64,000 nt of DNA, taken from assembly GCA_021783135.1 (NCBI GenBank), contig JAJXUE010000008.1, forward strand, positions 1 to 64,000. The letters are read 5' to 3'. Positions 48,747-62,262 of the stretch are shown piece by piece. A program made the position numbers and the translations under genes. The stretch comes from Bacillota bacterium (GTDB lineage Bacteria; Bacillota; Desulfitobacteriia; Desulfitobacteriales; JAJXUE01). Below the pieces are notes generated by a model. It ran no database searches, was not told the DNA's origin, and was given only the letters and a program-made list of their open reading frames with translations. Numbering within the stretch: the stretch's first letter is position 1; each line of letters begins with the position of its first letter.

Positions 48747-48858
48747 TATAATCAACGGTAGAATGGTAGGATGGAAAGAGCATGATTGTTGCAGGTGGCG
48801 GGGATTACCCTTGCTCACCTGATAATTAGCCTTGAAGCACCCGCCATGGGTGCTTTTT
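48747..48858 (+). promoter_or_regulatory. hutP leader: promoter -10, GGTAG repeats, mutually exclusive antiterminator/terminator
   Basis: TATAAT 48747-48752; GGTAGAATGGTAGGATGG 48757-48774; AGGTG/CACCT stem; TGGCGGG (48796-48802)/CCCGCCA (48840-48846) versus AGCACCC/GGGTGCT-TTTT terminator (48836-48858). Confidence 0.7.
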
Positions 48859-48885
48859 GAGCTTTAAACTCCGGAGGTTTTAGCT

Positions 48886-49308
48886 ATGAATCTTGGCAGC
48901 AAAAAAGTTGCGATGGTGGCCTTGCGTATGGCCTTAAGTGAATCAAGGGAAGAAGAATCACATTTAAAAGAACATTTTGCCAAAAGCGGGATTAAAACTG
49001 CAGGGGTAGATTATGGGGGTGAATTTGTTCCCTCCGTGCGCAAAATTGTCGAGAGGGCTGTAGTCGCAGCCAAACGTGAGGGAGTAATTCAAGAAACACA
49101 TGGCGGTGAAGGCGCTGTGGCGGGGGCGGCCCGTGAAGCTTTGAGTCAGATCATGCCTAAAGCCGTAGGACTCAATATTGGCGGGAAAATAGGCGTGGCG
49201 CGTTACCAAGAGCATCTCAGTGTGGCTGTATTTGTCGGCATTGGGCTACTGCATTTGGACGAAGTAGCCGTAGGGCTTGGTCACCGCGCCCTAGCTAAGG
49301 AGGGATAG
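48886..49308 (+). CDS. hutP: HutP-family RNA-binding antiterminator
   Basis: Alignable by eye with B. subtilis Hut[21 protein letters not shown], [14 protein letters not shown], [26 protein letters not shown]. Confidence 0.85.
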
Positions 49309-49309
49309 G

Positions 49310-49675
49310 ATGTTTGTCAGAGGAATTAGAGGAGCTACTTCGGTAACGGAGAACACCCCTGAGGCCATCAGGATTGCAACCAGGGAGCTGTTGCGTACGA
49401 TCGTGCAGGAAAATGAACTGGACCTCTCGATGCTTGTAAGTGCTATCTTCACGGTTACTAAAGATCTAAACGCCGACTTTCCGGCTTCGACTGCGCGGGA
49501 ATTGGGCTGGAATAGTGTACCCCTGATTTGCGCAACTGAGATCGATGTACCTGGGGCGATGCCTCTGGTGATCAGGGTCTTAATTCACACCAACACCACA
49601 AAGAGTCAAACTGAGATCAAGCATGTTTACCTGGGTGCGGCGGCCGGATTGCGGCGTGATTTAGCTGCACAATAA
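49310..49675 (+). CDS. aroH: Monofunctional chorismate mutase
   Basis: [17 protein letters not shown], LLxxIVQENEL, [13 protein letters not shown]. Confidence 0.95.
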
Positions 49676-49821: not shown

Positions 49822-50005
49822 TAGAGTAGTCAGAGTGTTAGGCAGTAGTTGAGCTGAGAATTAAGTATGCGATTGAGCTAAGTAAAGTTATGTTGTGTTA
49901 GTTGAGTTAGTTGAGCAAAGTTGAGCTGAGCTGAGATGAGAATGCTGCGCTGGGAACATAATTGTTCATTACCGGACCAGTACTCATTTGAGTACTGGTC
50001 TTTTT
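49822..50005 (+). promoter_or_regulatory. trp leader with NAG-triplet array (TRAP-like) and intrinsic terminator
   Basis: NAG triplets at 49899, 49904, 49908, 49913, 49918, 49923, 49928, 49933, 49938 plus a less regular upstream set (49822-49887); terminator GACCAGTACTCA-TT-TGAGTACTGGTC-TTTTT 49975-50005. Confidence 0.8.
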
Positions 50006-56645: not shown

Positions 56646-57461
56646 ATGAAAACATTGAAATACGCAAGACTTGCGGAGCATGACCACACAGTTGTGAGCG
56701 TTGGTTCTGTATTAATCGGCGGTCCTTCCATTCCTGTCATGGCCGGTCCTTGTGCTGTGGAAAGCAGGGAACAGCTGTTATCAGTCGCCATCAGTCTGAA
56801 AGATTTAGGCGCATCGTTGCTGCGCGGCGGTGCGTTCAAACCGCGCACATCACCGTATGCGTTTCGGGGTCTGGCCGAAGAAGGCCTTAAGATGTTGGCG
56901 GAAGCCAGGGAACTTACCGGCTTGCCGATTGTCACCGAAGTGATGGATGCCAGAGACGTAGAACTCGTTGCCCGCTATGCTGATATGCTGCAAATCGGCA
57001 GCCGCAATATGCAGAATTTTACTTTGCTGCAGGCAGTGGGAGATGTCGCTAAGCCTGTTTTACTCAAACGTGGTTTGTCCGCAACGCTCGAAGAATGGCT
57101 AATGGCTGCGGAATATATTTTGGCTACCGGTAATCCGCAAGTGGTATTGTGTGAACGCGGTATTCGCACCTTTGAGACTTGGACGCGAAATACCGTCGAT
57201 ATCACGGCGATTCCGGCAGTGAAGGAACTGTCGCATCTGCCGATTATCCTTGACCCCAGTCACGGCACAGGCCGCTGGAAGATGGTTGCGCCGGTAGCCA
57301 AGGCCGCAATTGCCGCAGGAGCGGATGGTTTACTGATTGAAGTTCACCCTGACCCTGACTGTGCTTTAAGTGATGGTCCGCAATCCTTAACACCGGAGAA
57401 CTTTCACACCCTGATGCAGGAACTAAAACCGTTGGCGAAGGCAGTCGGCCGTATCATCTAG
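56646..57461 (+). CDS. aroF: DAHP synthase, type I-beta core without N-terminal regulatory domain
   Basis: [44 protein letters not shown]. Confidence 0.95.
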
Positions 57462-57485: not shown

Positions 57486-57648
57486 TTGTCAGCCGCATAT
57501 AACTATGGTATTATCTAACTTAATTATTGGTAGGTAGGGGCTTGGCCCACGGTAGAATGGTAGTATGGATTTTGGAGTTAAAAACTTATGTAGGATGGTA
57601 GTACGGTAGGGACAGGTGAGATTTTAGGGCGCCCTTATACCGGGGCGT
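57486..57648 (+). promoter_or_regulatory. hisC operon promoter and leader with GGTAG repeats and terminator
   Basis: TTGTCA(57486)-17-TATTAT(57509); GGTAG at 57529, 57551, 57559, 57597, 57605 (TAG also 57535, 57591); terminator GGCGCCC-TTATACCG-GGGCGTC-TTTATTT. Confidence 0.7.
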
Positions 57649-57681
57649 CTTTATTTATAGGCAAAAAGAGGAGGAAAGGCT

Positions 57682-58773
57682 GTGCTAAGTAAGGTAAGAC
57701 CGAGTGTCGAGAACCTGGCAGTTTATGTACCGGGCAAACCGATTGAAGAGGTCCAGCGCGAACTTGGTTTGACGCAGGTCATCAAGTTGGCTTCCAATGA
57801 AAACCCGTGGGGCCCGTCACCCCGGGCTTTGCAAGCGATAAGTAAGGCGTTAAGTGAAATCTATCTTTACCCTGATGCCAATGCCCAGGACTTAAAAGAG
57901 TCGCTGGGAAGTGAACTCGCAGTTGATGCCAATCAAATCATTATTGGTAATGGCTCGGAAGAAATTGTGCAAATGATTGCCAAAACCTTCGTCGATCCAG
58001 GCGATGAGGTCGTTATGGCAGCGCCCAGTTTTCCACGCTATCAAACTGTCACCGAGATGATGGCGGGTATATCGCGAGAGGTAATGCTGGTCGATTACCG
58101 CCACGACTTATTGACGATGGCGCAGCAAATCACGTCGCGCACCAAAGTGATTTTTGTTTGCAACCCCAATAATCCGACAGGTACCATTGTAACTGAAACG
58201 GAGCTAGATGAATTTATGCGCCAGGTTCCGGCGGATATTCTCGTAGTATTTGATGAAGCCTACTATGAGTATGTTGCAGATCCAAGCTTCGTCAGCGGGC
58301 TTAAATATCTTAAGGACGGACGGCGCGTTTTGATTCTGCGTACCTTTTCCAAAGCATATGGGCTGGCTGGCCTGCGCTTAGGATATGGCATCGGCGATGC
58401 CGCTGTTATCGACATGTTGAATCGGGTGCGTGAACCATTTAACGGTAATCTGTTGGCTCAAGTTGCCGCTCAGGCTGCTTGGCTGGATAAAGAGCATTTG
58501 CAACAGGTGCTGCAAAACACTGCCGCCGGACTGCAACAGCTGACGCAAGGCCTGGCACGTTTAGGACTGCAGGCGATACCTTCGCATACCAACTTTTTCC
58601 TTGTAGATGTCGGCCAGCCCAGCCCAGAAGTGTTCCAGGCTTTGCTTAGGCAAGGAATCATTATCCGACCGGGACATCTCTTTGGCTATGCTAACGCAAT
58701 TCGGGTTACGGTTGGCACAACAGAGCAAAACCAAGCCTTTTTGCAGGCTTTAACCGGCATTTTGCGACGCTAA
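57682..58773 (+). CDS. hisC: Histidinol-phosphate aminotransferase
   Basis: KLASNENPWGPSP, CNPNNPTGT, DEAYYEY, RTFSKAYGLAGLRLGY. Confidence 0.96.
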   Translation: MLSKVRPSVENLAVYVPGKPIEEVQRELGLTQVIKLASNENPWGPSPRALQAISKALSEIYLYPDANAQDLKESLGSELAVDANQIIIGNGSEEIVQMIAKTFVDPGDEVVMAAPSFPRYQTVTEMMAGISREVMLVDYRHDLLTMAQQITSRTKVIFVCNPNNPTGTIVTETELDEFMRQVPADILVVFDEAYYEYVADPSFVSGLKYLKDGRRVLILRTFSKAYGLAGLRLGYGIGDAAVIDMLNRVREPFNGNLLAQVAAQAAWLDKEHLQQVLQNTAAGLQQLTQGLARLGLQAIPSHTNFFLVDVGQPSPEVFQALLRQGIIIRPGHLFGYANAIRVTVGTTEQNQAFLQALTGILRR

Positions 58774-58848: not shown

Positions 58849-59865
58849 ATGATTATTGTCATGCAGCACGGGGCTACCCCGGAACAAATTGCGGAGGTAA
58901 CCGATCGCTTAGAGCAAGACGGTTTCAAAATTCACCTTTCGGAAGGGGTAGAAAAGACAATTATCGGCGCTGTCGGAGACAAGTCGCGTCTTGACGCTAT
59001 GTCCCTGGAAGCATACCCGGCAGTGGAAAAGGTCATTCCAGTACTCAAGCCATATAAACTGGCGGGACGCGAATTTCACCCGCATGATACTGTAATTAAT
59101 GTAGGAAATTTGACAATTGGCGGGGATACCCTTCAGGTTATGGCAGGCCCGTGTGCAGTTGAGAGTAGAGACCAGATTTTGCAGACCGCCCGGGCGGTAA
59201 AGGCCGCAGGCGCTACAATTTTACGCGGGGGAGCCTTCAAACCACGCACTTCACCTTATGCTTTCCAAGGGCTAGAGGAAGAAGGGCTCAAACTTTTGGC
59301 CGAAGCGCGGGAAGAGACCGGTCTTTTGATCATAACGGAAGTTGTCGATCCCCGCGATGTAACCTTGGTGGCCTCGTATGCAGATATTTTGCAAATTGGT
59401 GCGCGAAATATGCAGAATTTCTTGCTCTTGCGCGAGGTAGCCAAACTCAGTAAGCCTGTAATGCTGAAACGAGGACCTTCCGCCACCTTTGAAGAGTGGA
59501 TTATGGCCGCTGAATATATCATGGCCGGCGGTAACTATGATGTCATGTTCTGTGAGCGCGGTATTCGCACGTTTGAAAACTATACCCGTAATACGCTTGA
59601 TCTAAGTGCAGTGCCTGTCTTAAAAAGCTTGTCACACCTTCCGGTCGTAGTTGACCCGAGTCATGGAACTGGTCGCTGGGATTTGGTGCAACCGATGTCG
59701 CGTGCGGCGGTAGCAGCCGGGGCAGACGCTTTGATCATCGAAGTGCATCCGGAACCGGCCAAAGCTATGTCCGACGGACCCCAATCCCTCACCCCAGATA
59801 ATTTTACGAGCCTCATGGCTGACTTGCGTCAGATTGTCCAAGTCACCGGCCGAAGCTTGGCCTAG
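58849..59865 (+). CDS. aroF: DAHP synthase, type I-beta with N-terminal ferredoxin-like regulatory domain
   Basis: N-terminal [33 protein letters not shown]...; catalytic core as in 56646-57461. Confidence 0.96.
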
Positions 59866-59875
59866 GGGGTTGCGG

Positions 59876-60961
59876 GTGGAAATCAAGCGTGTAACCATTG
59901 TTGGCTTGGGTTTGATTGGGGGCTCATTAGGCCGGGCGATGGTCAAATTAGGCTATGACGTGACAGCAGTCGATCAAGATCAGGCTGCTTTGGATAAAGG
60001 TGTTGCACTTGGTGCTGCCTGCCGCGGAACTCGGGATTTGGCGGACGGGATCACCAACGCCCAACTAATTTTTCTAGCAGTACCGGTGGGGTCCGCCGTA
60101 GATATTCTACGCCAGATGACCGACTTCTTGCCGCCTGATATCATTGTAACTGACGTCGGCAGTGTAAAATCCGAAATTGTGCATTTAGCCGAGGAACTGG
60201 TCGATGGGCAAGTCAATTTCGTGGGTGGTCACCCTATGGCGGGGACCGAACACAGCGGGATTGATGGAGCGGACCCACTGTTATTTGTTAATGCCTACTA
60301 CGTCTTAACACCCGGTGCCAAATGTTCCGGCTCGGCGGTAGAAGTTGTAGCGGACATTGTCCGCAAGCTGGGGGCGTTTCCGGTCATTATGGATGCCTTA
60401 ATTCACGATCGGGCTGTAGCGACGCTCAGCCACTTGCCGCACTTGTTGGCCGTAGCCTTGGCCCAGACGGCCGGAACTTTGGAGCTTAAACAGCCGGGCA
60501 GTATTAAATTGGCGGCAGGCAGCTTTCGCGACGGCACCAGAGTAGTCGCCAGCAGCCCAGTGATGTGGCAAGATATTTGTGTGGCCAACCAACCAATGAT
60601 TTTGGAAGCGCTGCAAACCTTTCGCCACACACTAGCGGAATTAGAACGGGCCGTTGTGGCTAAGGACGGCGCAGCCATCGCTAACGCATTTATCGCCGCC
60701 GGTAAGGTTAAGCAGACTTCAACCCATAAGTTTGGGGAGGAAATTGCGGAGCTCGCAGTGAGTATTCCTGATGCCCCCGGTGCTTTGGGCCAATTGGCTC
60801 AAGCCTTAGGCTGCGCCGGCATTAATATAGTCGGCATTGAAATTTTGCACAGCCGTGAAGGGTTGCCTGGCAGCGTAGTGTTGAGCTTTCAAGATAAAGA
60901 TACAGCTGATGCGGCCTCGACTGTCATCAACTCCCTTCATATTCCGGTACAAGCTAGGTAA
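59876..60961 (+). CDS. tyrA: Prephenate dehydrogenase with C-terminal ACT domain
   Basis: GTG near 59876; [33 protein letters not shown]. Confidence 0.95.
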
Positions 60962-60972
60962 AGGAGCAGGTT

Positions 60973-62262
60973 ATGGATATTGTAATCAACCCCGCGGCAA
61001 AACTGTCCGGCCAATTGAGTGTTCCCGGCGATAAGTCAATTTCGCACCGAGCCGTGATGCTGGGCGCTTTAGCCGAAGGAGTTACCGAAATCGAAGGGTT
61101 CTTACCGGGGGCAGACTGTCTGAGTACTGTGGCCTGTGTGCGACAATTGGGCATAACAATTGACAATATCGGCCCGGAACACCTAAGGGTATATGGTCAG
61201 GGGCTACACGGTTTGCAGGAACCGGAGGACGTGCTTAACGTAGGTAATTCAGGTACCACGCTGCGCTTATTGTTAGGCATACTGGCCGGCCAAAATTTCG
61301 TCAGCATGTTAACCGGTGATAGTACAATCCGGCGGCGACCGATGGCTCGGATTACGGTTCCCCTGCAGCAGATGGGAGCGACGATTGTCGGGCGGGAGCG
61401 GGGTAAATTGGCCCCGTTAGCCGTCAACGGCGGCAATTTGCACGCCATCAACTATGTAAGTCCGGTGGCGAGTGCTCAGGTTAAAAGCGGCATCTTGCTC
61501 GCCGGCTTATATGCTGAAGGTGTTACCAGTGTCCAAGAACCCTATGTCTCGCGGGATCATACTGAAAGGATGCTGCGTGCTTTCGGAGCCAATGTCGTAA
61601 GCGAAGCTAATACGGTAAGTGTTTATCCCGGACGAATGCTGAAGGGACAAAAGGTGCAAGTGCCAGGAGATATTTCCTCTGCGGCATTCTTTTTGGTTGC
61701 CGGTTCAATCATCGGGCAAGGTGAAATTTGTGTGCAAAATGTGGGGGTTAATCCAACGCGTGACGGCATTATAACAGCACTCAGGGCTATGGGGGCGGAC
61801 ATCCGGCTTACCAACGAGCGAGAAGTTTCCGGCGAAAAACTGGCCGATTTGGTGGTCACACCAGCTGCATTACGCGGCATTCAAATCGGTGGGGAATTAA
61901 TCCCACGGCTCATTGACGAAATTCCGATTTTAGCTGTCGCGGCAGCCTTGGCGCAGGGGACCACCGAGATTCGCGATGCAGCAGAACTTAAAGTCAAAGA
62001 AACCAACCGGATTGCGGCAGTGGCTAGGGAGTTGGCCAAATTTGGGGTTAACGTTGAGGAACTCCCGGACGGCATGCGGATTCACGGGGGGAGCAAATTG
62101 CACGGAGCAGAGGTCGATACCTATGGGGACCATCGCATGGCCATGGCGATGAGCATCGCCGCCTTAGCTGCGAGTGGAAGCTCACTTATCAAGGCTGCAG
62201 ATGTCGCCGATGTATCCTTTCCCGGGTTTTACCGTTGTCTTGCCGATTTGCAGCAAAACTAA
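60973..62262 (+). CDS. aroA: EPSP synthase
   Basis: [37 protein letters not shown]. Confidence 0.98.

Follow-up and report, generated by a model that had tools for sequence, protein, structure and literature searches.

What does a hutP gene do among the genes for aromatic amino acid synthesis, and what reads the triplet repeats that precede it and a neighbouring operon? HutP is known as the switch of histidine utilisation, a breakdown pathway, in Bacillus. We analysed a 64,000-nt stretch of a Desulfitobacteriales genome (assembly GCA_021783135.1, contig JAJXUE010000008.1, positions 1 to 64,000), hereafter the window. The features of the hutP and hisC leaders and operons given below lie on its forward strand.

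Two aromatic operons share a NAG-repeat leader

The genes of the cluster follow the order flavoprotein, hutP, aroH, trp operon behind a TRAP-type leader, aroF1, and hisC-aroF2-tyrA-aroA-cmk behind a NAG-repeat leader. The cluster is similar in layout to the B. subtilis aromatic supraoperon, to which hisC belongs as an ordinary member. The hutP gene (48886-49308), assigned to an aro-type clade by PF09021 profile, fold and tree, is the proposed reader of the motif. It is co-transcribed with aroH (49310-49675), which encodes a type I chorismate mutase by profile match, and this linkage is conserved. The second controlled operon begins with a hisC-type aminotransferase gene in an aromatic operon context (57682-58773). 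It continues with aroF2 (58849-59865), whose product is a DAHP synthase with a ferredoxin-like regulatory domain and whose counterparts in other genomes are the genes most often preceded by the motif. Profile matches identify tyrA (prephenate dehydrogenase, 59873-60961) and aroA (EPSP synthase, 60973-62262).

In the hisC leader (57486-57681), a sequence scan finds a sigma-70-type promoter (TTGTCA-17-TATTAT, 57486-57514). A terminator scan finds an intrinsic terminator of 10 pairs, AGGGCGCCC-TTATACC-GGGGCGTCTT (57626-57651). The repeats lie between the two, and re-reading the sequence bore out the order of promoter, repeats and terminator given by the initial annotation. Judged by eye, the orthologous leader of the nearest relative (L194) has identical promoter hexamers and spacing. 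Block 1, CACGGTAGAATGGTAGTATGG (57549-57569), has TAG at 57553 and 57561. By way of correction, this block holds two NAG triplets in 8-nt register rather than three, plus a separate GGTAGGTAGGGG upstream. Block 2, GTAGGATGGTAGTACGGTAGGG (57590-57611), does have three TAGs at an exact 8-nt period (57591, 57599 and 57607), as claimed, and from its sequence we take it to be a full three-NAG site.

The hutP-aroH leader carries a matching block, CAACGGTAGAATGGTAGGATGG (48753-48774), with TAG at 48759 and 48767. These triplets have the same 8-nt period and stand in the same GGTAGNAYGG frame as those of the hisC leader. CACGGTAGAATGGTAGTATGG and CAACGGTAGAATGGTAGGATGG are thus the near-identical repeats that had been described. 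A leader scan with folding places a terminator hairpin, AGCACCCG-CCA-TGGGTGCT followed by TTTT, at 48835-48860; a stricter scan did not pick it up.

Upstream of block 1, the hisC leader has a further 5' element, GTAGGTAGGGGCTTGGCCC (57530-57548), with the core GGTAGGGGCTTGGCCC at 57533-57548. The element has a single exact copy in the source genome and is also found in the hisC (L194) and aroE (L193) leaders of the nearest relative. In the predicted fold of the leader transcript cut before the 3' arm of the terminator, GGTAGGTAGGGGC of this element pairs with GCCCTTATACC. The element is able to pair with the 5' arm and loop of the terminator and is a candidate antiterminator strand.

Two further features of the cluster concern other leaders and genes. 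The trpE leader (49822-49940) contains about 17 GAG/TAG triplets, mostly at a 5-nt period, as in a TRAP-type leader, and TRAP is encoded elsewhere in the source genome (G000:C4:80798-80998). The cluster also has two DAHP synthase genes. One, aroF1 (56646-57461), is the last gene of the trp operon and its product lacks the ferredoxin-like regulatory domain, whereas that of aroF2, in the operon with the NAG-repeat leader, has it. This division suggests split feedback.

The motif is rare, strand-specific and conserved

Allowing at most one mismatch, the 13-mer GGTAGNAYGGTAG occurs four times in the window, where 0.31 occurrences are expected. Its exact form has three copies in the 2.71-Mb source genome, only in the hisC and hutP leaders, and sites with one mismatch elsewhere in that genome fall inside long ORFs. 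The motif is thus rare outside leaders, which answers the genome-wide check proposed by the initial annotation. With two mismatches allowed, sites in the source genome were no more frequent than in the control, and we therefore claim no further targets there; the aroE gene of this genome has no site.

The second check proposed was of orthologous leaders, and the motif is present in them across lineages. Among 80 HutP loci from GTDB genomes, a degenerate form was counted 171 times on the strand of hutP and 11 times on the opposite one (P = 5e-38, with kinship among genomes ignored). The opposite strand was chosen as control because GGTAGGATGG reads the same backwards, so that a read-backwards control would not be independent. 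We then used 40 representative loci (HutP identity below 88%), with dinucleotide shuffles and the reverse strand as controls. Regions upstream of DAHP synthase genes contain 33 sites, in 15 of 25 divergent lineages, compared with 0.14 in shuffles and none on the reverse strand. In the same set, 12 sites precede hutP and seven precede aroH (shuffle means 0.14-0.23; reverse strand 0), and trpE, tyrA, aroA, cmk, trpD and trpB have no site before them. Homologous leaders thus show a strong excess over dinucleotide shuffles, and control upstream regions show none.

The spacing of the triplets was tested by offset. In 41% of sites, an AG stands 8 nt upstream, compared with 2-22% at other offsets. 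Together with the base profile, this defines a full site as (NAGNAYGG)n, with roughly three NAG triplets at an 8-nt period. Classical HutP likewise recognises NAG repeats in clusters of three (PMC7430163). In our data, two hutP-hutH spacers have a 7-nt period, with NAG at 13, 20 and 27 in L264, and at 60, 67 and 74 and again at 89, 96 and 103 in L274. NAG spacing is less regular in two other hut-linked loci (L262 and L266). The initial annotation had suspected a variant of the classical 7-nt code, and this view holds up, with 8 nt found across dozens of lineages and 7 nt in the hutH-linked leaders. We attribute this difference in code, with both periods seen in one data set, to two branches of HutP.

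The aro-type HutP has lost the histidine ligands

The hutP product matches PF09021 with 166 bits (cut-off 25) over positions 1-128 of the 128-position profile and is a true member of the HutP family. PDB sequence searches with a single HutP sequence or a profile retrieved no HutP. With an AlphaFold2 monomer model (pLDDT 93), every Foldseek match at E <= 0.001 is a HutP chain, the best being 1vea_B (TM 0.79).

The aro-linked proteins group together with support of 100/99 in a tree of 46 HutPs, in which the position of the other groups is uncertain owing to long branches. The gene neighbourhood agrees with this grouping. In most of the 80 HutP loci, hutP adjoins aroH and aro/trp genes, and a chorismate mutase gene adjoins 29 of the 30 best-scoring HutP copies retrieved.

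The L-histidine and metal ligands of Bacillus HutP are His73, His77 and His138. At about 20% identity, His73 and His77 (HALYH) align to Gly76 and Gly80 (EGAVAG), which are invariant in 34 sequences, and His138 aligns to Leu124, at a position that is not conserved. HutPs linked to hutH keep the HxxxH pattern, as does a third group (L261, L265 and L271). The loss of these residues, confined to the aro clade, argues for a different effector.

The third group (IHAxxHAxxEA, NHERVGLGIMH) adjoins neither hutH nor aroH, and its neighbours include CoA-transferase-like or carboxylase-like genes. One genome, G142, has three HutPs, one from each group (L259, L271 and L274), and offers a natural setting in which to compare the ligands and RNA codes of HutPs inside a single cell.

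The motif precedes genes for aromatic synthesis and candidate genes for uptake and breakdown

HutP matches occur in 200 of 300 sampled genomes of the phylum, and an 18-mer form of the motif, GGNAGNAYGGNAGNAYGG, occurs in 79 of the 300. The genes 3' of the motif include aroF, hutP, aroH, hisC, tyrA, aroE (L193) and aroK (L219), as well as a gene for a TrpX-type binding protein (L220) and genes for amino-acid-type binding proteins (L190, L191, L242-L244). Judged from these genes, the theme is aromatic amino acids and not histidine. The motif also stands before genes for AMP-forming acyl-CoA ligases (L160, L162, L163, L181 and L185), a PaaK-type ligase (phenylacetate-CoA ligase type, L203) and, judged from its N-terminus only, an indolepyruvate oxidoreductase-like protein (L176). 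This placement suggests that aromatic amino acid breakdown is controlled too.

Sodium:solute and sodium:neurotransmitter-type symporter genes are likewise preceded by the motif (L167, L187, L189, L198, L200, L205 and L222). The first six of these are possible importers of aromatic amino acids or aryl-acids, and the motif before them often overlaps the start codon. At one locus (L195 1511-1528, genome G235), the 18-mer is in non-coding sequence, with a guaB-like gene 533 nt downstream and no obvious aromatic target.

A proposed feedback repressor and its sign

In 63 distinct leaders, the site lies upstream of an intrinsic terminator. The site region is more complementary to the 5' arm and loop of the terminator than shuffles are, with a mean z of -0.70 over these 63 related leaders (kinship ignored), and 24% of leaders rank 5 or better of 100. 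Complementarity peaks in Moorella-type leaders, in which CAGGAG is paired with CUCCUG; in the hutP leader of the window it is no better than in shuffles (rank 33 of 100). The excess is a modest average one. Other sites lie at the start of the gene. Where DAHP synthase genes have the site on the Shine-Dalgarno sequence or start codon, the last NAG stands 16-17 nt before the start codon, and in three of the symporter genes (L167, L187 and L189) the site is on the Shine-Dalgarno sequence or start codon.

We propose, with a probability of roughly two in three, that the repeats are the binding site of the aro-type HutP clade and that this protein is a ligand-activated feedback repressor of aromatic genes, acting by blocking an antiterminator or the ribosome-binding site. 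We infer the binding, the oligomer, the sign and the ligand. The active form, probably a HutP-like hexamer that carries an aromatic amino acid or related metabolite, would bind the nascent leader. Upstream of a terminator, it would cover sequence needed for the antiterminator, so that the terminator forms. When product is plentiful, hisC-aroF-tyrA-aroA and hutP-aroH itself would be shut off. In other genomes, binding over the Shine-Dalgarno sequence or start codon would block translation. The outcome would be feedback repression of genes for aromatic amino acid synthesis, uptake and breakdown, beside the control of the trp operon by Trp and TRAP. A repressor fits both arrangements because the bound protein would block the antiterminator in one and exclude the ribosome in the other.

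The same protein and sites could act with the opposite sign. Ligand-bound HutP would then prevent the terminator and activate the operon, with aromatic shortage or histidine as the signal. The family has such a precedent in classical hut antitermination (PMC7430163), and sites upstream of terminators suit it. Against it, binding should repress at the many sites that overlap a ribosome-binding site or start codon, the region of the site tends to pair with the 5' arm of the terminator, and the clade no longer has the L-His/metal residues. We consider activation unlikely.

The effector of the proposed repressor is likeliest Phe and/or Tyr, or a related metabolite, a choice we hold with as much doubt as confidence. 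It follows from the division of labour in the cluster, since Trp already has TRAP, aroF1 lies in the TRAP-type operon, and aroF2 and tyrA lie in the operon with the HutP motif. The initial annotation had pointed to histidine on the strength of hisC. That link is not borne out, as the targets are aromatic-pathway genes, hisC is ordinary in a trp-hisC-tyrA-aroA cluster, and His73 and His77 are gone.

HutP is the likely reader of the repeats

We favour HutP as reader because it is the common factor of these leaders, is encoded in the same operons and has its own site before hutP. Among the sampled genomes, the 18-mer occurs in 63 of 171 with a strong, aro-type HutP (E < 1e-37) and in none of the 29 whose only HutPs are weaker matches (P = 7e-6). 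The strict 18-mer is absent from the other 108 aro-type genomes, where sites are weaker, different or absent. Conservation, linkage and co-occurrence thus support the original idea of a HutP RNA regulon shared by the hisC and hutP leaders, with the binding itself as the proposed step.

Another RNA- or DNA-binding protein might instead read the motif, with hutP a passenger in aromatic clusters. The 18-mer is indeed found in 16 of 100 genomes with no HutP match. Yet the hits in HutP-negative genomes lie mostly within coding sequence (14 of 18 loci); only 4 of the 18 fetched loci are intergenic, compared with 54 of 82 in HutP-positive genomes. One of these four (L160) comes from a genome that is 91% complete and has a HutP-bearing sister in the same genus. 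HutP is known to target NAG triplets in threes, and the motif both follows the aro-type clade and stands in the leader of hutP itself. The strand bias and the position of the sites speak against a DNA operator. A different reader is therefore improbable.

TRAP is encoded in the source genome and binds (G/U)AG repeats, but it is a very poor candidate for these leaders. Their period is 8 nt rather than 5-6, they have 2-3 triplets per block rather than 11, and the cluster has its TRAP-type leader elsewhere, before trpE. We rejected TRAP on finding that all seven Desulfosporosinus genomes checked (G301-G307) have strong sites and no TRAP match. Finally, a chance or functionless low-complexity purine tract, for which the purine-rich motif and the two-mismatch search might speak, is refuted by the excess over shuffles in homologous leaders, with none in control regions, and by the confinement of exact sites to two leaders of the source genome.

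Relation to known systems and significance

The HutP proteins of B. subtilis and Geobacillus (PDB 1vea, 1wmq, 1wpv, 4h4l and 4ok9) share with the aro-type protein their fold, PF09021, clusters of about three NAGs and leader terminators. The aro-type protein differs in its sequence (about 20% identity), its invariant glycines for His73 and His77 and its non-conserved counterpart of His138. Its NAG period is 8 rather than 7 nt, its targets are aromatic rather than histidine-utilisation genes, and its proposed action is repression rather than antitermination. None of the marks of a classical histidine-responsive HutP (His ligands, 7-nt period, hut linkage) was found in the aro-type system.

TRAP (MtrB) of the Bacillus trp genes has a similar logic, in which an amino-acid-activated protein on NAG-like leader triplets acts on termination and translation. 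It has an unrelated fold, uses about 11 (G/U)AG triplets at a 5-6-nt period and is Trp-specific. The hisC and hutP leaders, with their longer period, few triplets per block and occurrence in genomes without TRAP, are not TRAP leaders; TRAP is a separate system in the source genome and is absent from the motif-bearing Desulfosporosinus genomes checked.

T-box, PCE and ARO leader elements control aromatic genes in low-GC Gram-positives, and these too place the pathway under leader control. Rfam covariance models, which served for the comparison with known riboswitches and T-boxes, gave no hit at the gathering score in the window, nor at these leaders in eight loci.

These data describe a real, conserved regulatory system that represents HutP control in altered form and is undescribed in the literature searched. 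That search, which covered few subscription papers, returned nothing relevant on HutP with aromatics or chorismate, or on the HutP family and its homologs. On balance, we think that this widespread HutP branch may well serve anaerobic Firmicutes as a general sensor of aromatic amino acids. It would be an RNA-binding repressor similar to TRAP, with a NAG code of 8-nt period and a remodelled ligand pocket, and would control the synthesis, uptake and breakdown of aromatics by attenuation and translation block. If so, a large group of HutPs, a family present in two-thirds of the sampled genomes, would gain a function, and a single RNA-binding scaffold would have switched to another ligand and to another spacing code. 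Besides TRAP, aromatic amino acids would then have a second attenuation system that relies on a protein.
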